A DNA stretch of 64,000 nt from Nocardioidaceae bacterium. GTDB taxonomy: Bacteria > Actinomycetota > Actinomycetes > Propionibacteriales > Nocardioidaceae. The notes under the pieces were generated by a model. The model was not told the DNA's origin. It saw only the letters and a program-made list of their open reading frames with translations, and ran no database searches. The stretch spans positions 124,001-188,000 of the forward strand of contig JAGIBL010000006.1 in NCBI GenBank assembly GCA_017744365.1, in the 5' to 3' direction. The translations under genes and the position numbers were made by a program. Shown piece after piece: positions 43,225 through 55,404 of this stretch. The first letter of the stretch is position 1, and every line of letters starts with the position of its first letter.

Positions 43225-43815
43225 GTGCTGGTTCGTCGCGTCCTCGGCACCGCGACTGTCGTGCTGCTCACACTCGGCGTGGGCGGGTGCGGCGGCGGTG
43301 ACGACGAGCCGTCAGCCGGGCCGACCTCGGGCCAGCCGACCAGCGCGCCGGCCACCGGCCACGCTCCCGACGAGCCGATGCCCGGGGTGCCCACCGAGAC
43401 GCGGCTGCAGCAGCCGAGGGCGAAGGCGACCATCGCGCCCAGCGGGACCGCGACGGCGCTTCCCGACGTACGGATGCTCACCGCGCCGCGCGGCGCCCCG
43501 GTGAAGACCTGGCCGGTGCCCACCGACGTCAAGATCACCGACCCGGGCGCGGTCGACGACACCTGGCAGTTCGACCTGCACACCCGCGAGCCGGCGAAGG
43601 TGATCCGGTTCTACGAGCAGGTGCTCCCCCGGCTCGGCTACCGGGTCCGTACCGACCTGACCTACACGCTCGGCGACGAGCCGGTGCACTGGGACCTGGT
43701 CTTCGACGGCAAGGTCTCCGGCTCGATGGTGCGCGACCCCGCGCACGGCGTCGTCTTCGTGGTGGTGAACCCGCCGGGCCAGCCCGCGATCGCGGGCGAG
43801 ACCCCCTCGTCCTAG
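43225..43815 (+). CDS. Lipoprotein of unknown function
   Basis: This 196-residue protein has a signal peptide with lipobox (LGVGGC, Cys22) and a Ser/Pro/Thr-rich linker, then a domain with FYEQVLPRLGYRVRTDLTYTLGD, which looks like a compact alpha-beta fold. Probably anchored to the outer face of the membrane. GTG start. Confidence 0.75.
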   Translation: MLVRRVLGTATVVLLTLGVGGCGGGDDEPSAGPTSGQPTSAPATGHAPDEPMPGVPTETRLQQPRAKATIAPSGTATALPDVRMLTAPRGAPVKTWPVPTDVKITDPGAVDDTWQFDLHTREPAKVIRFYEQVLPRLGYRVRTDLTYTLGDEPVHWDLVFDGKVSGSMVRDPAHGVVFVVVNPPGQPAIAGETPSS

Positions 43816-44987
43816 GCCTTCGGCTCGAGCACGGTGCAGCGGGTGCGTGAGTAGATCGTCGTCATGCACTGGTTGCAGTGGATGCAGGCGCCCGCTGCGG
43901 TCTCGCCTCCGGCCATCCGGTTGACCAGGTCCGGCTCGCGCAGCAGGGCGCGGCCCATCGCGACGAACTCGAAGCCCTCGGCCATCGCCCGGTCGACGGT
44001 GGCGCGGGTGTTGATCCCGCCGAGCATGATGAGCGGCATCGCCACCGCCCCGCGGAAGACCAGCGCCTTCTCCCGCAGGAACGCCTCCTCGAACGGGTAG
44101 GAACGGAAGAACCGCTTGCCCACCGGGGTCTTGAGGCCCAGCCGCAGCGGCGCACGCATGTTGGCGGCGAACTCCTCCAGCGGCACGTCGCCGCGGAACA
44201 GGTACATCGGGTTGAGCAGCGACGAGCCGGCGCTGAGCTCGAGCGCGTCGAGGTGACCGTCGGCCTCGAGCAGCTGGGCGAACTCGACGCTCTCCGGCAT
44301 CGAGAACCCGGCCGGCGATCCCTCGGTCATGCCGATCTTGGCGGTGACCGCGACGCGGTCGCCGACCTCCTCGCGGACCGCGCGAGCGACCTGGCGGGCG
44401 AACCGGGCCCGGTTGGCCAGCGGACCGTTCCAGGCGTCCTTGCGGCGGTTCTGGCCGGGGGCGAGGAACGAGCTGAGCAGGTAGCCGTGCGCCATGTGGA
44501 TCTCGAGGACGTCGAAGCCCGCGGCGGCCATGATCCGCGCGGTGCGCACGTAGTCGCGGGTGATCCGGGCGATGTCGGCCTCGGACGCGGAGCGGACCAT
44601 CTGCATCGACAGCGGCGAGGGCATCCGCGAGGCGGCCAGGGCGTGCACCCCGTTGGAGCGGCCGTCCGCGACCGGGCCGGCGTGGCCGAGCTGGCCGGCG
44701 ATCTTCGCTCCCGTCTCGTGGATCTTCTCCGCCAACCGGGACAAGCCGGGCGCGGTGTCCTCGCCGACCACGATCACGTCGCGGTGTGTACGACCCTCGG
44801 GCGCGACCGCCAGGTAGGCGACCGTGGTCAGCCCGACGCCCCCGCGGCTCGGCGCCAGGTGGTAGTCGACCAGCGCATCGGTGACCTGGCCACCCGGGGT
44901 GCGGCCCTCGAAGGTGGCCGCCTTGACGATCCGGTTCCGCAGCGTCACCGGGCCCAGTCGGGCGGGCGCGAAGGCGTCGTTCTGCAC
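43812..44987 (-). CDS. NADH:flavin oxidoreductase (Old Yellow Enzyme-like)
   Basis: This 391-residue FMN-barrel protein has RNRIVKAATFEGRTP, AKIAGQLGHAG, DVLEIHMAHGYLLSSFLAP and LIMLGGINTRATVDRAMAEG. A C-terminal CIHCNQC plus later Cys resembles the iron-sulfur ligand cluster of 2,4-dienoyl-CoA reductase-type enzymes, but the protein stops before the second flavin domain. Upstream is the palindrome 45006-45024, which makes it a candidate target of the TetR gene at 46147. Confidence 0.9.
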   Translation of the reverse strand: MQNDAFAPARLGPVTLRNRIVKAATFEGRTPGGQVTDALVDYHLAPSRGGVGLTTVAYLAVAPEGRTHRDVIVVGEDTAPGLSRLAEKIHETGAKIAGQLGHAGPVADGRSNGVHALAASRMPSPLSMQMVRSASEADIARITRDYVRTARIMAAAGFDVLEIHMAHGYLLSSFLAPGQNRRKDAWNGPLANRARFARQVARAVREEVGDRVAVTAKIGMTEGSPAGFSMPESVEFAQLLEADGHLDALELSAGSSLLNPMYLFRGDVPLEEFAANMRAPLRLGLKTPVGKRFFRSYPFEEAFLREKALVFRGAVAMPLIMLGGINTRATVDRAMAEGFEFVAMGRALLREPDLVNRMAGGETAAGACIHCNQCMTTIYSRTRCTVLEPKA

Positions 44988-46146: not shown

Positions 46147-46725
46147 GTGACCGATTCCCGACCCCGCCGCCGGAGCGAGCGCGCCCGCGTCGCGATCCTC
46201 GAGGCCACCAACGTGCTGCTCCACGACCACGGCCTGGAGAACCTGAGCATCGAGGAGATCGCCGCCACGGCCGGCGTGGGCAAGCAGACGATCTACCGGT
46301 GGTGGCCGACCCGGCCGGCGCTGGTGGCCGACGCGCTGCTGCACCGCGACGACCTGGCGCCGCTGCTGCCCAAGGACACCGGCGACGTGGTCAAGGACCT
46401 GAGCCGCTGGGCCGGCGGGCTGGCCGAGTCGCTGGGCAGCGATCGGGGCGCGGCGACGCTGCGGATGCTGACCGCAGCGGCCACCGAGCACCCGGAGATC
46501 TCACGGCGGCTGCACGAGCGGTTCAGCGGGCCGCTGCAGGAGACGGCCTACGAGCGGCTGTCCGCGGCGAAGGAGATCAAGGCGACGCCGGCGCAGCGCC
46601 GGCACGCGGTGGACGCGATCATCGGCGGGATGGTCTACAAGGTGCTCTCGCACCAGAAGCTGACCCGGGCCGGGGCCGCGGAGACGGTGCGGATCGTGCT
46701 GCGGGGGCTCGGGGCTTCCGTCTGA
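46147..46725 (+). CDS. TetR/AcrR family regulator
   Basis: This 192-residue protein has a TetR HTH (ARVAILEATNVLLHDHG, IEEIAATAGVGKQTIYRWWPTRPALVADALL) and a C-terminal ligand domain. It lies between two units that carry the same palindrome (45006-45024 and 47397-47415), so it probably represses both the OYE-like and hotdog genes. GTG start with TAGGCT at near-leaderless distance. Confidence 0.93.
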   Translation: MTDSRPRRRSERARVAILEATNVLLHDHGLENLSIEEIAATAGVGKQTIYRWWPTRPALVADALLHRDDLAPLLPKDTGDVVKDLSRWAGGLAESLGSDRGAATLRMLTAAATEHPEISRRLHERFSGPLQETAYERLSAAKEIKATPAQRRHAVDAIIGGMVYKVLSHQKLTRAGAAETVRIVLRGLGASV

Positions 46726-46731
46726 GCCGGC

Positions 46732-47379
46732 CTAGCGGGTCTGCTCGAAGTCACCGGACCAGCGCGGCACGACGAAGGTGCCCTCGGCCTCGATGGCGAC
46801 GCCGAGACGGCCCTCGATGCGGGCCTCGACGAACACCTTGCGGCCCTCCTCGCCGACGACCTCGCCGGTCAGCCGGACCTCGCCGAGCGGCAGCGGGTCG
46901 CGGTAGCGCAGGGTCAGGGTGCCGGTCAGGGTGACCTTCTTCATCTGGCTGGCGGTGACGCCCATGAGGTGGTCGAGCAGGAGCGCGCCGACGCCGCCGT
47001 GCACGCAGCCCGGCGGGCCCTCGTAGGCGGCGCCGAGGTGCAGGGTCGCGCTGGTACGACCGTCGGGCCCGTGCTCGATCGACAGCGGCGGCGCGATCGC
47101 GTTGCGCACGCCCGCCACGGCGTTGCCCCAGTTCCAGGCGCGTCCGGTGGCGTTGTAGTTGACCCCGGCGGGCCCATCCGCCTGGTCCGCGCGCAGCCGC
47201 GCGGTGGCCTCCCGTACGGCGGCGAGCACGACCGCCACCTCGTCGTCCCCGACCCGGCTGCGGATGGTCGCGTCCACCAGGTCGCGGACCGCGCCGGCCA
47301 GCGGGCCGTACCGGGCCTCGACGGCATCGACCTCGGCGTCCGGCACGTCGACCATCCGGAACGCGGTCACGTCCTCCAC
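46732..47379 (-). CDS. PaaI/hotdog thioesterase family protein
   Basis: The C-terminal half (about 110-210) is a single hotdog domain with YEGPPGCVHGGVGALLLDHLMG and LRYRDPLPLGEVRLTGEVV; the N-terminal half (about 1-100) is helical and unassigned. A thioesterase acting on aryl- or acyl-CoA is likely. GTG 47379 is preceded by AGGAGG, and a TetR-type palindrome lies 17 bp upstream. Confidence 0.85.
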   Translation of the reverse strand: MEDVTAFRMVDVPDAEVDAVEARYGPLAGAVRDLVDATIRSRVGDDEVAVVLAAVREATARLRADQADGPAGVNYNATGRAWNWGNAVAGVRNAIAPPLSIEHGPDGRTSATLHLGAAYEGPPGCVHGGVGALLLDHLMGVTASQMKKVTLTGTLTLRYRDPLPLGEVRLTGEVVGEEGRKVFVEARIEGRLGVAIEAEGTFVVPRWSGDFEQTR

Positions 47380-48304: not shown

Positions 48305-50242
48305 TCAGAGCGCGACCGCGGCCCGGGCGGCGTCCTCGGTGGCCTTGCGCACCAGGCCGATCCCCTCGGCGTCGCCGGCGACGGTCACCGGGACACGGGG
48401 CAGTCGGTCGCGGATCTCGTCGTACAGGGTGAGGTCGGGCTCGGGCACCGGCGCCAGCACGACCGTGTCCGCGACCAGCACCCGTGCGCTCCCGCCGCAC
48501 GGCGTGAACGCCAGGCCCTCGGGCACGACACCGTCCACGCCAGCCTCCACGTGCACGGTCACGCCGAGCCGGTCCAGCCGGTGCAGGTGCTCGGTCCGGC
48601 GCTTGTTCCCCACCTCCGGCGCGAGAGTGGCGTGGTCGGTGACGAGGGCGACGAGGCGGTCCTGACGAGCCAGGGTCTCGGCGTACTGGACCACGGCCAG
48701 GCCACCACCGACGATCACCACCCGGCGTCCGGGCGAGGCGGCCAGCAGCTCCGGCCAGGCGCCCCGCAGTGCCAGGTCGTCGCCGGGCACCGACGGCACC
48801 ACGAACCGGGCTCCGGTGGCGACCACCACGGCGTCCGGGGCGAGCGCGGCCACCGCCTCGGCGTCCGTGACGCTCCCCCGTCGTACATCGATCCCGGCGG
48901 TGTCCACCTCAGCCCGCAGCCAGTCCAGGAACGACGCGTTCTCGGGATGCACCAGCGAGGCCCATCGCAGTGCACCGCCGAGCTCGTCCTCCTGCTCCAG
49001 CAGGGTCACCCGGTGCCCGCGAGACGCCGCGACTCGTGCTGTCTCCAGCCCGGCCGGACCACCGCCGACCACGACGACGTGCTTCGCCGCCGGCGTCGGC
49101 ACCGGCGTCAACGTCAGCTCGCGGCCGGTCACCGGGTTCACCGCGCAGTCCACCGAGAACCGCTGCTCGAGCGCGTCGATGCAGTTCTCGCAGGAGATGC
49201 ACCGGCGGACCCGGCGTCCGTCGCGCAGCTTGTTCGGCAGCTCCGGGTCGGCCAGCAACGGCCGGGCCAGCGCGACGAAGTCGGCCCGCCCGTCGGCGAG
49301 CACCCGCTCGGCCAGGTCCGGATCGTGCAGCCGGCCGACCGCGATCACCGGGACGTCGACCGCCTCGCGCACCGCCGCCGCGGCACCGACGTTGAGCCCG
49401 TCTCCGTCGTCGGAGCCGTTCACCATCTGGGTCACCAGCCGGTCGATCACCCCGCCGCTGACGTGGAACGCGTCCACCCCGGCCTCGACCAGGCGCGGGG
49501 CCACCTGCGCGGTCTCGTACGACGGCCGCCCGCCGGCCACGCGCTCGAAGCCGGAGATCCGCAGCGTCACCGGGAAGTCCGGCCCCGCCTCGGACCGGAT
49601 CGCGCCGAGCGCCTCGAGGACGACCCGCAGCCGGCCCTCGCTCGTGTCGCCGCGGTACTCGTCGGTGCGCCGGTTGCGCTGCGGCGCCAGGAACGAGCCG
49701 AGCAGCATGTACCCGTGAGCGGTGTGCAGCTCGATGCCGTCGTACCCCGCCTCCCGCGCACGCCGGACCGCCGCCTTGTAGAGATCCATCACCGCGGCGA
49801 GCTGTGCGTGGGTGATCTCCGCCGACGGCCGCCCGGTCAGGTACGACGGGATCACCGACGGGCCGAGCGAGGTCACGCCGAACATCTCCGGACCGAGCCC
49901 GTCCGGGCCGGCGTGCACCAGCTGCGGCTGGATCTTCGCGCCGTGCGCGTGCACCTCCTCGACCAGTGCCCGGTGCGCGGCGACGCCCGCGTCGGTGCCG
50001 AGGTGCAGGCCGCCGGGCGTCTCGGGGTGCTCGTGGTCGATCCCGGTGGCGCCCAGGGTGATGAGCCCGACCCCACCCGCGGCACGGGCCGCGACGTAGG
50101 CGCGGGTGCGCTCCGAGGGCAACCCGTCCGGCGTGCCGTACATCGTCTCCATCGGGGACATGACGATCCGGTTGCGCAGCTCCATGCTCCCGATCCGGCC
50201 GGGGCGGAGCAGGTGCCCGAACCTCGGCGACACCGCGGTCAC
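48305..50242 (-). CDS. 2,4-dienoyl-CoA reductase-like flavoenzyme (OYE barrel plus FAD/NAD domain)
   Basis: This 645-residue protein joins an FMN barrel (about 1-345; LRNRIVMSPMETMYGTPDG, YDGIELHTAHGYMLLGSFLAPQRNRRTDEYRG), iron-sulfur Cys (CISCENCIDA...DCAVNP) and a nucleotide-binding domain (HVVVVGGGPAGLETARVAASRGH). That is the FadH/BaiCD layout, so it reduces an enoyl- or dienoyl-CoA, steroid enone or similar. GTG overlaps the upstream DapB-like gene. Confidence 0.93.
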   Translation of the reverse strand: MTAVSPRFGHLLRPGRIGSMELRNRIVMSPMETMYGTPDGLPSERTRAYVAARAAGGVGLITLGATGIDHEHPETPGGLHLGTDAGVAAHRALVEEVHAHGAKIQPQLVHAGPDGLGPEMFGVTSLGPSVIPSYLTGRPSAEITHAQLAAVMDLYKAAVRRAREAGYDGIELHTAHGYMLLGSFLAPQRNRRTDEYRGDTSEGRLRVVLEALGAIRSEAGPDFPVTLRISGFERVAGGRPSYETAQVAPRLVEAGVDAFHVSGGVIDRLVTQMVNGSDDGDGLNVGAAAAVREAVDVPVIAVGRLHDPDLAERVLADGRADFVALARPLLADPELPNKLRDGRRVRRCISCENCIDALEQRFSVDCAVNPVTGRELTLTPVPTPAAKHVVVVGGGPAGLETARVAASRGHRVTLLEQEDELGGALRWASLVHPENASFLDWLRAEVDTAGIDVRRGSVTDAEAVAALAPDAVVVATGARFVVPSVPGDDLALRGAWPELLAASPGRRVVIVGGGLAVVQYAETLARQDRLVALVTDHATLAPEVGNKRRTEHLHRLDRLGVTVHVEAGVDGVVPEGLAFTPCGGSARVLVADTVVLAPVPEPDLTLYDEIRDRLPRVPVTVAGDAEGIGLVRKATEDAARAAVAL

Positions 50243-51288
50243 GAGCGGAAGCGGCCCGCGAACGCGCGCAGAGGCAGGTCGGCACTGGTGACGATGCCGG
50301 GCGGCGCCGCGACCACGGCCGGGATCGCGTTCAGCGCGGGCATCCCGGTCACGGTCATCCCGATCGAGGCGAAGGCCGCCGCGTCGAACGGCGTGCCCGG
50401 CCGCGGGATGATCAGGTGCTTGCTGTAGACGATCGGATCGCCGTCGATCCGGGTCACGTAGCAGCCCTGCACGTCCCAGGAGGGCGCTGTCTTCGGGGTC
50501 ATCTGCCACTCCAGCGCGAGCTCGACCTTCGGCACGCCACCGACCTTGCCGACGTACGAGAACCGGGCGGCGCCGACCGAGCCCTGCGGCAGGGTCCACC
50601 AGCCCAGGTCGACGTCCTCGGTGCAGGCGCCGAGCTCGCCCTCGAAGTCGACCGCGTCCAGGTCCAGCCCGAAGGCATCGGCCATCAGCCGGACCCCGTC
50701 CTCGAAGACCCGGGTGCCGGACTCGAGCTTGCGCAGCTGCGCGAGGTCGTCGGCGGGCGCTCCGAAGCCGCAGTTGACCCAGGTGTCGACGGAGTGGTGG
50801 CAGGAGACGTCGACGGACTCGGTGCAGGTGACCTTCTCGATGTCGGCGACATCGGTGGAGTGCACGACGGTGAGGACCTGCGCGAGCCCCGGGTTCATCC
50901 CGGTGCCGTAGAACGTCGAGCCTCCGCGCTCGCAGGCCGCCGCGATCCGGCTCGTCTCGGCCGACCCGCGGTGGTGGCCGGTGACGAAGTCGGCGGTGGT
51001 GACCACGTCGATGCCCGCCTCGAGCACCCGCTCGTACAGGTCGAGGTCGGGCCAGACGCCGTGGAAGGTGAGCACATCGGGCCGCGCGGCCAGGATCTCC
51101 TCGACCGTGCCGGTGGCGAGCACGCCGACCGGCTCACCGCCGCTCAGCTCGCCGGCGTCGCGGCCGATCTTCTCGGGGGTGTAGCAGTGCAGCCCGACCA
51201 GCTCGAGGTCCGGGTGCCGCCGGATCCGGCCGATCATCTCGCGGCCGACGTTGCCGGTGGCGACCTGGAAGACGCGGTACGCGGGCAT
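50239..51288 (-). CDS. DapB-like NAD(P)-dependent dehydrogenase
   Basis: This 349-residue protein starts with a Rossmann motif (VFQVATGNVGREMIGRIRRHPDLELVGLHCY), as in the dihydrodipicolinate reductase-like family that includes 2,4-diaminopentanoate dehydrogenase. It continues with GIDVVTTADFVTGHH and TGMNPGLAQVLTVV. Such proteins occur beside actinobacterial lipid and steroid genes. Substrate unknown. It is co-transcribed with the FadH-like gene and divergent from the LLM gene. Confidence 0.85.
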   Translation of the reverse strand: MPAYRVFQVATGNVGREMIGRIRRHPDLELVGLHCYTPEKIGRDAGELSGGEPVGVLATGTVEEILAARPDVLTFHGVWPDLDLYERVLEAGIDVVTTADFVTGHHRGSAETSRIAAACERGGSTFYGTGMNPGLAQVLTVVHSTDVADIEKVTCTESVDVSCHHSVDTWVNCGFGAPADDLAQLRKLESGTRVFEDGVRLMADAFGLDLDAVDFEGELGACTEDVDLGWWTLPQGSVGAARFSYVGKVGGVPKVELALEWQMTPKTAPSWDVQGCYVTRIDGDPIVYSKHLIIPRPGTPFDAAAFASIGMTVTGMPALNAIPAVVAAPPGIVTSADLPLRAFAGRFRS

Positions 51289-51297
51289 GGCGGGAGG

Positions 51298-51321
51298 GTT
51301 TCATAGATCCCTCAATGAAAC
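51298..51321. promoter_or_regulatory. Inverted repeat between divergent metabolic operons
   Basis: GTTTCAT (51298-51304) and ATGAAAC (51315-51321), with a 10-nt spacer, occupy the 46-bp gap between the DapB-like and LLM genes. A TetR regulator at 53570 is the likely binder. Confidence 0.5.
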
Positions 51322-51327
51322 TAGGGT
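51322..51327 (+). promoter_or_regulatory. -10 element TAGGGT of the LLM gene
   Basis: TAGGGT lies 7 nt before GTG 51335 and adjoins the inverted repeat, so the transcript appears leaderless and the repeat could regulate it. Confidence 0.45.
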
Positions 51328-51334
51328 GGCGACC

Positions 51335-52210
51335 GTGGACTTCGCCGTCGTCGGTGCGTTCGTGCCCACCGAGGAGCTGCTGCCGCTCGCGGTGGCGGCG
51401 GACGAGCTCGGGTACGACGGCTTCTGCGTGGGCGACCACGTCGTCGACCTGGAGACCATCGCGACGCCGTACCCCTACGAGGCCGACGGCAGCCGCCGCT
51501 GGGACCCGGACACGCCCTGGCCGGACCCGTGGGTGCTCATCGGCGCGATGGCCGCGGTCACCACCCGGCTCTCCTTCTTCACCTCGATCTACGTGGCCGC
51601 GCTGCGCAGCCCGTTCCAGGTCGCCAAGTCGGTCGGTACCGCGGCCGTGCTCTCCGGCGGCCGGGTCCGGCTCGGCGTCGGGGTGGGCTGGTGCCGCGAG
51701 GAGTTCGAGCTCCTCGGGCAGGAGTTCGAGTCCCGTGGTCGTCGTACGGACGAGGCGCTGGCGCTCCTCGAACGCCTCTGGACCGAGGACTGGGTGAGCG
51801 CGGACGGACCGCACTACCCGGCGCCCCGGCTGACGATGCGGCCGCGGCCGGCGCAGCGGGTGCCGATCCTGGTGGGCGGCCTCAGCGACGTGGCCCTGCG
51901 GCGCGCCGCCCGGCACGACGGCTGGATCGGCGACGTCTCCTCCACCGACGAGGCGATCGCGGTCGCGGCCCGGCTGCGCGAGCTGCGCGGCGGCAGGCCG
52001 GCGAGCGTGGTCGCCGCCCTGAACGACGCGCTGCTGCCCGAGGACTTCGCCCGCGCGGAGGCCGGCGGCGTCACCGACGTGATGACCCAGCCGTGGATGT
52101 ACTACTCCGGCCGCCGGGCCACCCTGGCGCAGAAGATCGAGGGCCTGGCCCGCTTCCGCGACGACGTGCTCGTTCCCCTTGACACTGCCCGGGAGCACAC
52201 CCATGCTTAA
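51335..52210 (+). CDS. LLM-class F420-dependent oxidoreductase
   Basis: This 291-residue luciferase-like barrel begins VDFAVVGAFVPTEELLPLAVAADELGYDGFCVGDHVVD, and contains RVRLGVGVGWCREEFELLGQEFESRG and RVPILVGGLSDVALRRAARH. This type in actinobacteria usually uses F420. It is divergent from the FadH-like operon and 42 bp upstream of the P450. Confidence 0.92.
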   Translation: MDFAVVGAFVPTEELLPLAVAADELGYDGFCVGDHVVDLETIATPYPYEADGSRRWDPDTPWPDPWVLIGAMAAVTTRLSFFTSIYVAALRSPFQVAKSVGTAAVLSGGRVRLGVGVGWCREEFELLGQEFESRGRRTDEALALLERLWTEDWVSADGPHYPAPRLTMRPRPAQRVPILVGGLSDVALRRAARHDGWIGDVSSTDEAIAVAARLRELRGGRPASVVAALNDALLPEDFARAEAGGVTDVMTQPWMYYSGRRATLAQKIEGLARFRDDVLVPLDTAREHTHA

Positions 52211-52252
52211 TTTGCTCGCCTGCACAAATAACTCACCGAAGCGAGGACACCG

Positions 52253-53485
52253 ATGACCGTCACCAGCCTGCCCGAGGGCTTCGACTTCACCGACCCGGAC
52301 ACCATGCTCGCCGGCGTGCCGCTGGCCGAGCACGCGCTGGCCCGGCAGACCTCGCCGGTGCACTGGGTCGAGCAGCCGCAGTCCTCCCGCGACGGGATGG
52401 AGGGCGGCACCGGCTACTGGGCCGTGTCCCGGCACGCCGACGTGCTCCGGGTGTCCAAGGACAGCAAGAACTTCTCGAGCGCCGAGAACTCCGCGATCAT
52501 CCGGTTCCCCGCGGGGATGCAGCGGGAGATGATCGAGTTCCAGCGGGTGATGCTGCTCAACCAGGACGAGCCCGAGCACACCGCGACCCGGCAGATCATC
52601 AGCCGCGGGTTCACGCCGCGCTCGATCATGGCGCTCGAGGAGGGCCTCAAGGAGCGGGCCCGGAAGATCGTCGCCGACGCGCTCGCCCAGGGCGACGTCG
52701 ACTTCGTCACCGAGGTCGCCGCCGAGCTGCCGCTGCAGGCGATCGCCGACCTCCTCGGCGTGCCGCAGGAAGACCGCAAGCAGCTCTTCGACTGGTCCAA
52801 CCAGATGCTCGCCGGGGAGGACCCGGAGTTCGCCGGTCAGTCCGACGTGGCCGCCGCCGAGATCCTCGCCTACGCGATGGCGATGGCCGCGGACCGCAAG
52901 GCCAACCCGCGCGACGACATCGTCACCAAGCTGGTGCACGCCGACAAGGACGGCCGCGGCCTGACCGACGACGAGTTCGGCTACTTCGTCATCATCCTGA
53001 CCGTGGCCGGCAACGAGACCACCCGCAACGCCATCACCCACGGGATGGACGCGTTCCTCGACAACCCCGAGCAGTGGGACCTGTGGGTGAAGGAGCGGCC
53101 GGCCACCATGGTCGACGAGGTGACCCGGTGGGCGACCCCGGTCAACGTCTTCCAGCGGACGGCGACGAGCGACGTCGAGGTGGGCGGGCAGCTGGTCAAG
53201 GCAGGGCAGCGGGTCGGGCTGTTCTACGCCAGCGGCAACCACGACGAGGACGTCTTCGCCAACCCCCACACCTTCGACATCCGGCGCGACCCGAACCCGC
53301 ACCTGGCCTTCGGCGGCCACGGCGCGCACTACTGCATCGGCGCCAACCTGGCCCGGGTCGAGATGAACCTGATGTTCAACGAGCTCGCCGACCAGTGCAC
53401 CAAGATCGAGCGCCTCGGGGACCCGGTCCGGCTGCGCCACAGCTGGATCAACGGCATCAAGGAGCTGCGCGTCCGGCTCTCCTGA
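52253..53485 (+). CDS. Cytochrome P450, CYP125-like
   Basis: This 410-residue P450 has the I-helix AGNETT (252-257), the ExxR pair Glu289/Arg292, and the heme ligand Cys361 in FGGHGAHYCIGANLAR. Segments such as EGFDFTDPD, SRGFTPRSIMALEEGL, AELPLQAIADLLGVPQEDR and ITHGMDAF follow CYP125, the steroid C26/27-hydroxylase that starts cholesterol side-chain removal. CYP142 or a fatty acid hydroxylase is possible. It needs a ferredoxin partner, which is not adjacent. Confidence 0.93.
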   Translation: MTVTSLPEGFDFTDPDTMLAGVPLAEHALARQTSPVHWVEQPQSSRDGMEGGTGYWAVSRHADVLRVSKDSKNFSSAENSAIIRFPAGMQREMIEFQRVMLLNQDEPEHTATRQIISRGFTPRSIMALEEGLKERARKIVADALAQGDVDFVTEVAAELPLQAIADLLGVPQEDRKQLFDWSNQMLAGEDPEFAGQSDVAAAEILAYAMAMAADRKANPRDDIVTKLVHADKDGRGLTDDEFGYFVIILTVAGNETTRNAITHGMDAFLDNPEQWDLWVKERPATMVDEVTRWATPVNVFQRTATSDVEVGGQLVKAGQRVGLFYASGNHDEDVFANPHTFDIRRDPNPHLAFGGHGAHYCIGANLARVEMNLMFNELADQCTKIERLGDPVRLRHSWINGIKELRVRLS

Positions 53486-53490
53486 GCCTG

Positions 53491-53545
53491 CCGGTTTCCC
53501 GAAGGCACATGTGAAACCGGCCGTTCGATCCGAAACATCGGATCG
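53491..53545. terminator. Two hairpins between convergent P450 and TetR genes
   Basis: CCGGTTTC/GAAACCGG (53491-53520) and CGATCCGA-aaca-TCGGATCG (53526-53545) lie between convergent ends and probably stop transcription from both sides. Confidence 0.6.
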
Positions 53546-53569
53546 GACGTGCCCGTTTCGGGTCGGCAG

Positions 53570-54223
53570 TCAGCCCGCCTGCAGGCCGGCGCTGGTGAAG
53601 ATCGTGAGCTGCTCGACGAACTCCGGGTCGATCCCCTCGGGACCGATCGGGCGTCCGTAACCACCCAGGTCGGCGGTCGCGAGCGCGCTCAGCATCGAGA
53701 ACATCGCAATCGGCGCGCGCAGCTCGACCGCGCTCGATCGCAGCGCGGGCACCCCAGCCGCCGCGGAGACGAACAGGTCGGCGATGTCGTCCTCGCCGGC
53801 CACCTGCGCGGCGATGATCTCGTCGCCGTTGAGGGCCAGCGTGATGACGATCCGCAGCCACCGGACGCCGCCGTCCGGGTCGCGGCGGATCTCGTCGACG
53901 AACGGCAGCAGGACCGACTCGACCAGGTCGCGCGCACTCAGGTCGGTCCGGCCCTGGAGCGCGCGCAGCCGCGTTCGGATGGCGTCGCCGACCCGGCCGC
54001 CGCGGCGCAGCACGACCGCCTCGAGCAGGTCGCGCTTCGACGGGAAGTGATGGGTCAGCGCGGCCGGTGCGACCCCGGCGGCACGGGCCACCGAGCGCAG
54101 CGAGACGGCGTCCACGCCCTCGGTCCCGAACAGCTCCTCGGCCGTCTCCAGCAGGACCACACGGACGTCGACGTCGACCCGGGGGCCGCGGCGTCGCTGC
54201 GTGGTCGTCTCCATCTGCCCCAC
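53570..54223 (-). CDS. TetR/AcrR family regulator
   Basis: This 217-residue protein has a TetR HTH (VVLLETAEELFGTEGVDAVSLRSVARAAGVAPAALTHHFPSKRDLLEAVV) and a long ligand domain. It is convergent to the P450 gene and may control the LLM/P450 and FadH-like/DapB-like units through the inverted repeat at 51298-51321. Start may be ATG 54223 or 54214. Confidence 0.92.
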   Translation of the reverse strand: MGQMETTTQRRRGPRVDVDVRVVLLETAEELFGTEGVDAVSLRSVARAAGVAPAALTHHFPSKRDLLEAVVLRRGGRVGDAIRTRLRALQGRTDLSARDLVESVLLPFVDEIRRDPDGGVRWLRIVITLALNGDEIIAAQVAGEDDIADLFVSAAAGVPALRSSAVELRAPIAMFSMLSALATADLGGYGRPIGPEGIDPEFVEQLTIFTSAGLQAG

Positions 54224-54224
54224 C

Positions 54225-54689
54225 CTAGTCAGTCGGCGCTCGCAGGTCGGGGACGTTCTGCATCAGCTCGATCCGGGTGCCGTCCGGGTCGGTCAGGTAG
54301 ACGAGCCGCGGGGCCGCCGGGTCGCCCGGGTCGCCGAGCACCTGCCGGGTGTGCGCGACCACCTCCCCGCCGTACGCCGCGACCGCCTCGTCCAGCTCGC
54401 CGATGTCGTCGACACGGAAGGAGAGGTGGGTGAAGCCGAGCTCCGTCATCGGCCTGCGACCGCCGCCGGTGATCGGCACGTCCTCCCACTGCAGCAGCTC
54501 GACCCGGATGTCCCCGCGGACCAGCATCGCCGAGCGGAACGCGCCCTCCTGCTCCATCGTGACCGCGACCTCGTCGTTGGCGAAGTCCATCCGGTACAGC
54601 ACCGTGAAGCCGAGCACCGCGGTGTAGAACGCCACCGAGCGCTCCAGGTCGGAGACCGCGACGCCGACGTGCGAGAAGCCCTGGATCAT
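54225..54689 (-). CDS. VOC family (glyoxalase-like) protein
   Basis: This 154-residue protein begins MIQGFSHVGVAVSDLERSVAFYTAVLGF and ends LVYLTDPDGTRIELMQ, a standard VOC signature with a Glu metal ligand. ATG 54689 is chosen because homology begins there. Same strand as, and 1 bp upstream of, the TetR gene. Confidence 0.9.
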   Translation of the reverse strand: MIQGFSHVGVAVSDLERSVAFYTAVLGFTVLYRMDFANDEVAVTMEQEGAFRSAMLVRGDIRVELLQWEDVPITGGGRRPMTELGFTHLSFRVDDIGELDEAVAAYGGEVVAHTRQVLGDPGDPAAPRLVYLTDPDGTRIELMQNVPDLRAPTD

Positions 54690-54747: not shown

Positions 54748-55404
54748 GTGGACAACGAAGACCTGCGGCTGGCGGTGTTCCGGACCTTCGCCGCCGGGCG
54801 GATCCCGACGATCGCCGGCCTGGCCACCGAGCTCGGAACGATGCGCGACACGGTCCGGGCCGGCCTGTTCTCACTGTCCAACGCTCACCACGTGGTCCTC
54901 GGCAAGGACAGCGAGGTGGTGATGGCGCACCCGTTCTCGGCGGTACCGCTCGGCTTCTCGGCGATGGGCAAGGACGCCCTGTGGTGGGGCGGCTGCGCCT
55001 GGGACTCCTTCGCGCTGCCGCACCTGCTGCCCGAGCAGGCCCCGGTGCTGGTGGCCACCCGGTGCCCGGCCTGCGCCCGCCCGCACGCGTGGAACGTGAC
55101 CGACCGCGAACCACCGCCGGGCGACCAGGTCGCGCACTTCCTGGTCCCGGTCGCGCGGATGTGGGAGAACGTCGTGCACACCTGCGGGCACCAGCGGATC
55201 TTCTGCTCGCAGGCGTGCGTGGACACCTGGCTGGAGCGCACCGGCCGGCAGCGGGGGTACGTGATGGACCTGCCCACGCTGTGGCGGCTGGCAGCGCACT
55301 GGTACGACGGCCGGCTCACCCGCGGCTACGTACGACGAGAGCCCCGCGCTGCCGCGGCGTACTTCCGCGAGGTCGGTCTCGAGGGTCCATTCTGGGGCCT
55401 GTGA
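54748..55404 (+). CDS. Alkylmercury lyase (MerB)-like protein
   Basis: This 218-residue protein resembles MerB: VMAHPFSAVPLGFSAMG and WWGGCAWDSFALPHLL, with Cys83-Ala-Trp-Asp86 matching the MerB Cys96/Asp99 pair, and Cys153 in HQRIFCSQACVD where MerB has its second catalytic Cys. An N-terminal helix-turn-helix-like part (about 1-50) also agrees. No mer operon is present, so organomercury lysis is not assured. The extra CPAC and CSQAC may bind metal. Confidence 0.8.
   Translation: MDNEDLRLAVFRTFAAGRIPTIAGLATELGTMRDTVRAGLFSLSNAHHVVLGKDSEVVMAHPFSAVPLGFSAMGKDALWWGGCAWDSFALPHLLPEQAPVLVATRCPACARPHAWNVTDREPPPGDQVAHFLVPVARMWENVVHTCGHQRIFCSQACVDTWLERTGRQRGYVMDLPTLWRLAAHWYDGRLTRGYVRREPRAAAAYFREVGLEGPFWGL

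Follow-up and report, generated by a model that had tools for sequence, protein, structure and literature searches.

The 64-kb stretch of DNA analysed here (the window; G000:C12:124001-188000) belongs to a Nocardioidaceae bacterium of the Nocardioides/Marmoricola type, whose genome comprises 4.76 Mb in 15 contigs. It carries a cluster of genes for a FadH-like flavoenzyme, a DapB-like dehydrogenase, a luciferase-like F420-type oxidoreductase (LLM), a CYP125-family cytochrome P450 and a TetR-family regulator. We put the probability at roughly 0.55 that these genes form an accessory sterol-processing module, which would be independent of the cholesterol regulator KstR, controlled by an operator of its own, directed at ring-methylated sterols and present here in reduced form. 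Throughout, G denotes genomes of the family (G000 being the window's own), L loci and C contigs. Going by the DapB-like protein, Nocardioides marmorisolisilvae, N. marmoriginsengisoli and Marmoricola metagenome-assembled genomes are the nearest named relatives. Genes outside the window were called with simple codon scorers, so that their starts are uncertain, and some of their names were given by eye.

Results

The cluster (48305-54214) is arranged around a divergent gap of 46 bases. On the minus strand lie the gene for the DapB-like NAD(P) oxidoreductase, which also resembles 2,4-diaminopentanoate dehydrogenase (50239-51288), and, overlapping it by 4 bases, the gene for an NADH:flavin oxidoreductase of the FadH/OYE type with a pyridine-nucleotide domain (48305-50242; GTG start, uncertain). 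On the plus strand, the LLM gene (about 51335-52210; GTG start, placed by eye) is followed by the P450 gene (52253-53485), with which the gene of the local TetR, identified by family search (53570-54214, minus strand), converges. The GTG start of the LLM gene is found just downstream of a TAGGGT box (by eye), and its transcript is perhaps leaderless. An earlier note had described a candidate steroid or isoprenoid degradation island at this position; all five genes named there were recovered by family searches, and the main cluster genes are intact open frames.

Within the divergent gap, the inverted repeat GTTTCATAGATCCCTCAATGAAAC occupies 51298-51321 (no strand) as an exact match; with up to three mismatches the window holds 2 sites, compared to a mean of 0.14 after shuffling. 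The repeat had been noticed before as GTTTCAT-N10-ATGAAAC. While its presence stands, its form has to be revised, as the relatives point to a symmetrical unit of approximately TTTCAYAGA-N4-TCTRTGAAA (site composition was tabulated from 19 sites chosen as clear, leaving out loci without a site and G075). The head-to-head gap holds an exact TTTCA-N12-TGAAA in the window and in G053, G087, G107, G110, G257, G239, G081 and G101, and a copy with one mismatch in G075; the pattern is thus present in 10/10 family genomes examined and exact in 9. The window site keeps 10/10 half-site bases; its core departs from the consensus, as does that of G053. Genome-wide, G000 has two exact occurrences of the pattern (control: 0), the window site and one at C13:54707, which has a different core and precedes a purK-like gene (by eye). 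Many further exact matches in G081, G075, G257 and G239 were left out of the count, their cores being others, such as CCAGCTGG, CCGGGTGCCCGG and CGGCCGGCCG. An inverted repeat at 53494-53517 (3 mismatches; no strand) was dismissed as a second operator; it belongs to a perfect hairpin of 9 bp, GCCGGTTTC/GAAACCGGC, and because this hairpin lies between the convergent ends of the P450 and TetR genes it looks, as read by eye, like a terminator.

Based on these comparisons, the divergent gap carries a conserved TetR-type operator, whose predicted reader is TetR3, a regulator from outside the window. In G087, G107 and G110 the TetR3 gene lies between the LLM and CYP125 genes. With the G087 protein as query, TetR3 is found at 62-89% identity in G107, G110, G239, G257 and G114 and at 62% in G081 and G075. 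No TetR3 orthologue was found in G000 or G053, the best match there being a paralogue of 48-51% identity; in G000 this paralogue (49-51%) is encoded at C1:31003-31596, and G087, G107 and G110 carry it besides TetR3. Because TetR3 was found in neither genome, the window and G053 appear to have retained the operator but not the regulator that normally goes with it. A search for a site of the C1 paralogue as a possible replacement reader gave none at up to two mismatches in 4 kb around its gene plus seven related loci. The local TetR, whose gene recurs next to that of the cluster-type CYP125 (69-76% identity) and which reaches no curated TetR family cut-off, may read the operator. It is a disfavoured candidate, since G257 and G239 possess the site and TetR3 without the local TetR. 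No palindrome common to the gaps between this TetR gene and the adjoining GMC oxidoreductase gene was seen in 7 related loci.

The operator was then followed through a survey of 80 named loci, 58 of which carry both a Rieske oxygenase and TetR3. It is present in five Nocardioides/Marmoricola gaps. Between the Rieske and TetR3 genes it is exact in L107, L114, L115, L116 and L131 and has one mismatch in L112, L118 and L168, i.e. it adjoins the Rieske gene in 8/58 loci, the two genes being divergent except in L131. Three Rieske/TetR3 loci (L153, L163, L169) carry AATCACAGAGGNCTCTACGATT. In Nocardia gaps the best palindromes are often of another type, and for this reason the operator cannot be regarded as general to all TetR3 loci; in loci such as L124, L129 and L152, a palindrome AACCCTCTT-N11-AAGAGGGTT replaces it in the Rieske/TetR3 gap. 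Other palindromes were encountered on the way. The type TTTCACRCCAGCTGGYGTGAAA is repeated at many places across G081 and G075, and the perfect palindrome TTTCACCGGGTACCCGGTGAAA occurs at L219:10775 and 11933 and at L074:11481, with similar sites in G257; the copy at L219:10775 lies just past a fadA5-like gene adjoining a CYP125 gene and possibly belongs to another regulon.

The gene set around the operator recurs in relatives. Orthologues of the DapB-like protein (65-82% identity) are distinct from a background of 41% and amount to 27 genes in 25/294 genomes, including the window's own. The order FadH-DapB/LLM-CYP125-TetR is found again in G053, G087, G107 and G110. G257 and G239 show DapB/LLM-TetR3-FadH-thioesterase without CYP125, and G081 and G075 FadH/LLM-TetR3-CYP125-TetR-GMC without DapB. 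G101 has its genes on two contigs, FadH/LLM on the first and CYP125-TetR-GMC at the edge of the second. FadH and LLM are thus always together in the ten cluster genomes, with DapB and CYP125 optional. The gene for a GMC oxidoreductase follows the TetR gene in G053, G087, G107, G110, G081, G075 and G101. In the window no GMC gene stands between the TetR gene and the next one, of the VOC family, and the nearest GMC found in G000 (68% identity) is encoded at C7:1035095, about 26 kb from the CYP125 gene of that contig.

The P450 scores 504 and 479 bits against solved CYP125 structures, compared to 304 bits for CYP124 and 192 bits for CYP142. G000 possesses three CYP125s, namely the window copy and those at C7:1008237 (67% identity) and C9:361580 (66%). 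A fadA5-like thiolase gene (named by eye) lies divergently to the C7 copy, whereas the window copy has no fadA5-like neighbour. For the third copy (G000:C9:361580-362803; L003, L025) none is seen in its 4.2-kb locus. At E <= 1e-120, CYP125 occurs in 124/288 family genomes, many of them with two or more copies, some adjacent. The cluster-type CYP125 (at least 83% identity) is full-length in 7 genomes including the window's own, and G075 has it broken into two pieces; all eight belong to the window's own genus. The G075 gene (L216:9095-10337) is split around residue 135, by either a frame break or an assembly error. In a tree of 43 CYP125 rows and two in-genome outgroup P450s, which held no CYP124 or CYP142 rows, the cluster-type proteins form a 7-row clade (support 99/99), within which the window protein, 83-88% identical to its clade, pairs with that of G053 (100/99). 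A single site separates the clade from the remainder, position 80 being Ser in 7/7 cluster-type rows and Gly in 36/36 other CYP125 rows. Both the bit scores and the position among CYP125 rows bear out the CYP125-like assignment made previously, and the phylogeny proposed as a check gave, within that set of rows, no grouping away from CYP125. The window P450 is a CYP125 paralogue, for which its sequence family predicts steroid C26 hydroxylation.

The partner enzymes belong to broad families. The FadH/OYE protein matches Pfam Oxidored_FMN (201.8 bits) and Pyr_redox_2 (91.1 bits), with 6qkg and 1ps9 as best PDB entries, and misses the NCBIfam cut-offs for BaiCD (339.7 versus 825 bits), mycofactocin OYE2 (390.7 versus 793.15 bits) and bilirubin reductase (351.2 versus 750 bits). 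LLM passes TIGR03619 (199.6 bits versus a cut-off of 166.9), and its use of F420 is predicted from this family. For the DapB-like protein, PF19328 (C-terminal DAP_DH_C) is reached with 28.2 versus 23.3 bits, while NF040740, 2,4-diaminopentanoate dehydrogenase, is not (74.8 versus 400 bits). A structural model (pLDDT 76.9) was compared by Foldseek, and the top 18 matches are all amine dehydrogenases (TM 0.59-0.74). Hereby, the segment TTADF aligns to TTAEE/TIAEE of these enzymes, placing Asp100 at a Glu position in 27/27 orthologues. The presumed catalytic residue is one of the two aligned Glu, neither of which the window protein keeps. Because Asp100 replaces Glu, we regard the protein as a relative of the amine dehydrogenases and not as one of them. 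With the native amine dehydrogenases and 2,4-diaminopentanoate dehydrogenase (PMC11164908) it shares the fold and a weak sequence match, and differs from them in carrying Asp instead of Glu. In the latter respect it resembles group G5 of that work, which is mainly devoid of the catalytic Glu and for which the available text gives no function. We found no function in the literature for DapB-like relatives without this residue.

Several lines of gene context link the cluster to steroids. The FadH and DapB orthologues stand inside the cyp51 operon in 5/80 named loci (L099, L101, L102, L103, L104), all from Mycobacterium, and adjoin there a gene for an Rv0760c-like steroid isomerase. The P450 of L102 scores 832 bits against M. 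tuberculosis CYP51 (Rv0764c), and those of the other four loci are 86-88% identical to the L103 copy. Other than Rv0764c and Rv0760c, the gene numbers used here for the mycobacterial operon are our assumption. In L099 the DapB gene lies 4 bases from an adhB-like gene and overlaps FadH, and the short contig L111 has the FadH-DapB pair together with AdhB-like and isomerase-like genes. The same isomerase is met again at the operator, as the Nocardioides protein encoded behind a further operator copy in these relatives is an Rv0760c relative (E 7e-62), to which the Mycobacterium isomerase beside FadH-DapB is 70-73% identical. In genomes hand-picked by the analyst, the Rv0760c-like isomerase is found in 7/7 other cluster genomes versus 0/8 non-cluster genomes (E <= 1e-20), and it was not found in G000 at this threshold. 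Upstream of its gene the operator is exact in G081, G075 and G110, has one mismatch in G107 and G101 and three in G087, and is missing in G053. The cluster is reduced in G000: searches recovered neither the cognate repressor nor the isomerase, and for the GMC oxidoreductase of the neighbourhood there is only a 68% relative elsewhere in the genome.

CYP51 itself (65-69% identity) occurs in 13/13 likewise hand-picked genomes with the module and 0/3 without it. The module of G257 is separated from a cyp51 operon by about 5 kb, and in G029 the TetR3 paralogue adjoins such an operon. G110 has a second CYP51 (C185:14098-15357), and its second DapB orthologue (C185:30529) is encoded about 15 kb away. 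The operon of G000 (L260, C8:616539-624681; several genes named by eye) comprises genes for an SDR, CYP51, a ferredoxin-like protein, an Rv0762-like protein and an aldehyde dehydrogenase, then two further dehydrogenases, a small gene, a TetR and a CYP123-like P450. Hereby, the Rv0762-like protein keeps the six-residue spacing of an 8,14-sterol reductase (Y37/Y43, Y78/Y80, D133/D136).

Rieske oxygenases provide a further link, being the partner of the DapB orthologue in 60 of the 80 loci, compared to FadH in 12, never both, and neither in 8. The sole Rieske protein tested, from L075, is of the KshA_C type with KshA (4qdc; E 5e-32) as best PDB match. Moreover, the gene of the TetR3 paralogue of G000 belongs to a run of three (C1:30134-33113; L087:8135-11114), flanked on one side by an LLM-like gene (by eye) and on the other by the gene of a KstD-type 3-ketosteroid dehydrogenase matching 4c3x (E 8e-160).

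The canonical cholesterol genes stand apart. For the KstR motif, which we take to be TNNAACNNGTTNNA, there are 0 matches in the 64-kb window, as the earlier note had stated. G000 encodes a KstR homologue elsewhere (C7:715749; 277.5 bits, just below the cut-off of 280). Of the proposed steroid island for cholesterol side-chain removal, the steroid context is upheld by the partner genes, whereas the cholesterol side-chain role is not, the P450 having neither a fadA5-like neighbour nor a KstR site. A cluster distinct from the KstR cholesterol regulon is thus supported, the KstR homologue and the fadA5-linked CYP125 standing elsewhere.

Discussion

In conclusion, gene order, operator and co-occurrence support a steroid or sterol as substrate. 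A methylated sterol is a further step, which the cyp51 links make most likely, and degradation, as opposed to modification, is tentative. In the mechanism that we favour, a sterol or steroid ligand would free a TetR repressor from TTTCAYAGA-N4-TCTRTGAAA, thereby opening both divergent promoters. CYP125 would oxidise the end of the sterol side chain and the FadH-like enzyme would reduce a conjugated C=C bond, while the DapB-like enzyme might use Asp100 and NAD(P) to reduce or oxidise a ring carbonyl or hydroxyl and the F420-type enzyme might add a further redox step. The substrates would be sterols with extra ring methyls, of the lanosterol or cycloartenol type, and the module would work together with the CYP51/ferredoxin-like/8,14-reductase-like operon of G000.

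Compared to known systems, the cluster has the CYP125 family in common with the KstR-regulated gene set for cholesterol, which includes cyp125 and fadA5 (KR76_14335/14340 in N. simplex; available text of PMC7593942 and PMC7807495), and G000 has at C7 a CYP125 copy divergent from a fadA5-like gene; the window differs in lacking a fadA5-like neighbour and the KstR motif and in having other partners and another operator. The mycobacterial cyp51 operon includes the FadH and DapB orthologues in the five Mycobacterium loci, and G000 has a cyp51 operon too, whereas in the window the pair stands at a locus of its own, alongside CYP125 and an F420-type enzyme. In relatives, the Rieske-DapB pairs recall SdmAB of sterol C-4 demethylation, a Rieske protein with an NAD(P) reductase (PMC10202945, as far as its text is available). 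This is an analogy, as SdmB/C are of the SDR type, the reductase here is DapB-like and no Rieske gene was seen at the window cluster. With the 8,14-sterol reductase acting after CYP51 (PMC13277303), the Rv0762-like protein, encoded next to CYP51 in G000, shares the spacing YxxxxxY, YxY and DxxD. Because the available text of that article gives no Rv07 number, the match stays provisional. The same text describes an M. tuberculosis homologue as active after CYP51, cites the conversion of lanosterol to a C19 steroid by a Mycobacterium, and names Mycobacteriales, not Nocardioides, among the carriers. The natural role of mycobacterial CYP51 is called unclear in the portions available of PMC6469627 and PMC13277303. 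All enzyme families are known ones, and the literature searched, supplementary files not included, suggests that this combination and its operator have not been described.

A more far-reaching possibility, which we advance tentatively and hold to be rather doubtful, is that the FadH/DapB/LLM/CYP125 genes with the TetR3 operator and the mycobacterial and nocardial Rieske-DapB-TetR3 loci belong to one unrecognised catabolic pathway for ring-methyl sterols (lanosterol, cycloartenol, 4-methylsterols). Hereby, CYP51 would remove the 14-methyl group, Rieske-DapB would act at C-4 like SdmAB, and the amine-dehydrogenase fold without its Glu would work on sterol carbonyls. If true, the orphan mycobacterial CYP51 and Rv0760c would gain a catabolic role.

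Several observations weigh against the sterol module that we favour. The operator is missing at up to one mismatch from 50/58 Rieske+TetR3 loci and from the five cyp51-operon loci. The co-occurrence with CYP51 may mark sterol degraders only, because the 3 genomes without CYP51 are also without CYP125 matches, and the counts are not independent, because close relatives share history. At L062 and L066, moreover, DapB-FadH pairs have no recognised steroid neighbours. Together with the breadth of the OYE, LLM and thioesterase families, these two loci would suit the breakdown or alteration of an isoprenoid or branched lipid that is not a steroid (hopanoid, carotenoid, diterpenoid, branched alkane). 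We consider this weaker and unlikely, as the cyp51 operon, the Rv0760c-like isomerase, the KshA-type Rieske protein and the KstD-type dehydrogenase indicate steroids.

It is equally improbable, in our estimate, that the P450 is a redundant cholesterol side-chain hydroxylase backing up the canonical CYP125 amid unrelated flavoenzymes. Membership of the same family, the identity of 66-67% with the remaining two CYP125s of G000 and the frequency of multiple CYP125s in the family would fit such redundancy, but the clade keeps its kinds of neighbours (LLM, FadH and TetR, with GMC in relatives) and a fixed Ser80 where 36/36 others have Gly, and the window has no KstR motif. Since neither the cognate TetR nor the isomerase was found, the module may also work differently in G000 or be decaying. 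A remnant that has become non-functional after loss of regulator, isomerase and GMC oxidase would account for these absences, for the GMC relative of 68% being elsewhere and for a site core that is off consensus, as in G053. Given intact main genes, a P450 still 83-88% identical to its clade and 10/10 half-site bases, we regard such decay as quite unlikely.

The accessory sterol module would, on the favoured reading, tie CYP51 and the Glu-less DapB-like proteins together by gene order and a shared operator. It offers a testable regulon with one operator, one regulator, a defined enzyme set and a candidate substrate class, and the position of two of its genes within the cyp51 gene set of some other bacteria suggests that these separately switched enzymes handle sterols outside the reach of the ordinary cholesterol genes.

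Surrounding genes

The genes delimited previously (48305-54223) were found as described, whereas the conserved unit is wider than that interval, including a short OYE and a 4HBT thioesterase and, in relatives, the GMC oxidase. The short OYE-type flavoenzyme (43812-44987, minus strand) travels with the cluster at 69-84% identity, as does in relatives the 4HBT-type thioesterase (46732-47379, minus strand). A second TetR gene adjoining the latter (46147-46725, plus strand) is kept in some relatives. At the other end, the VOC-family gene (54225-54689, minus strand) comes directly after the local TetR gene, and an open reading frame at 54748-55404 adjoining the cluster is MerB-like (alkylmercury lyase family), with a score under the curated cut-off. 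The first third of the window consists mostly of flagellar-type genes, as read by eye.

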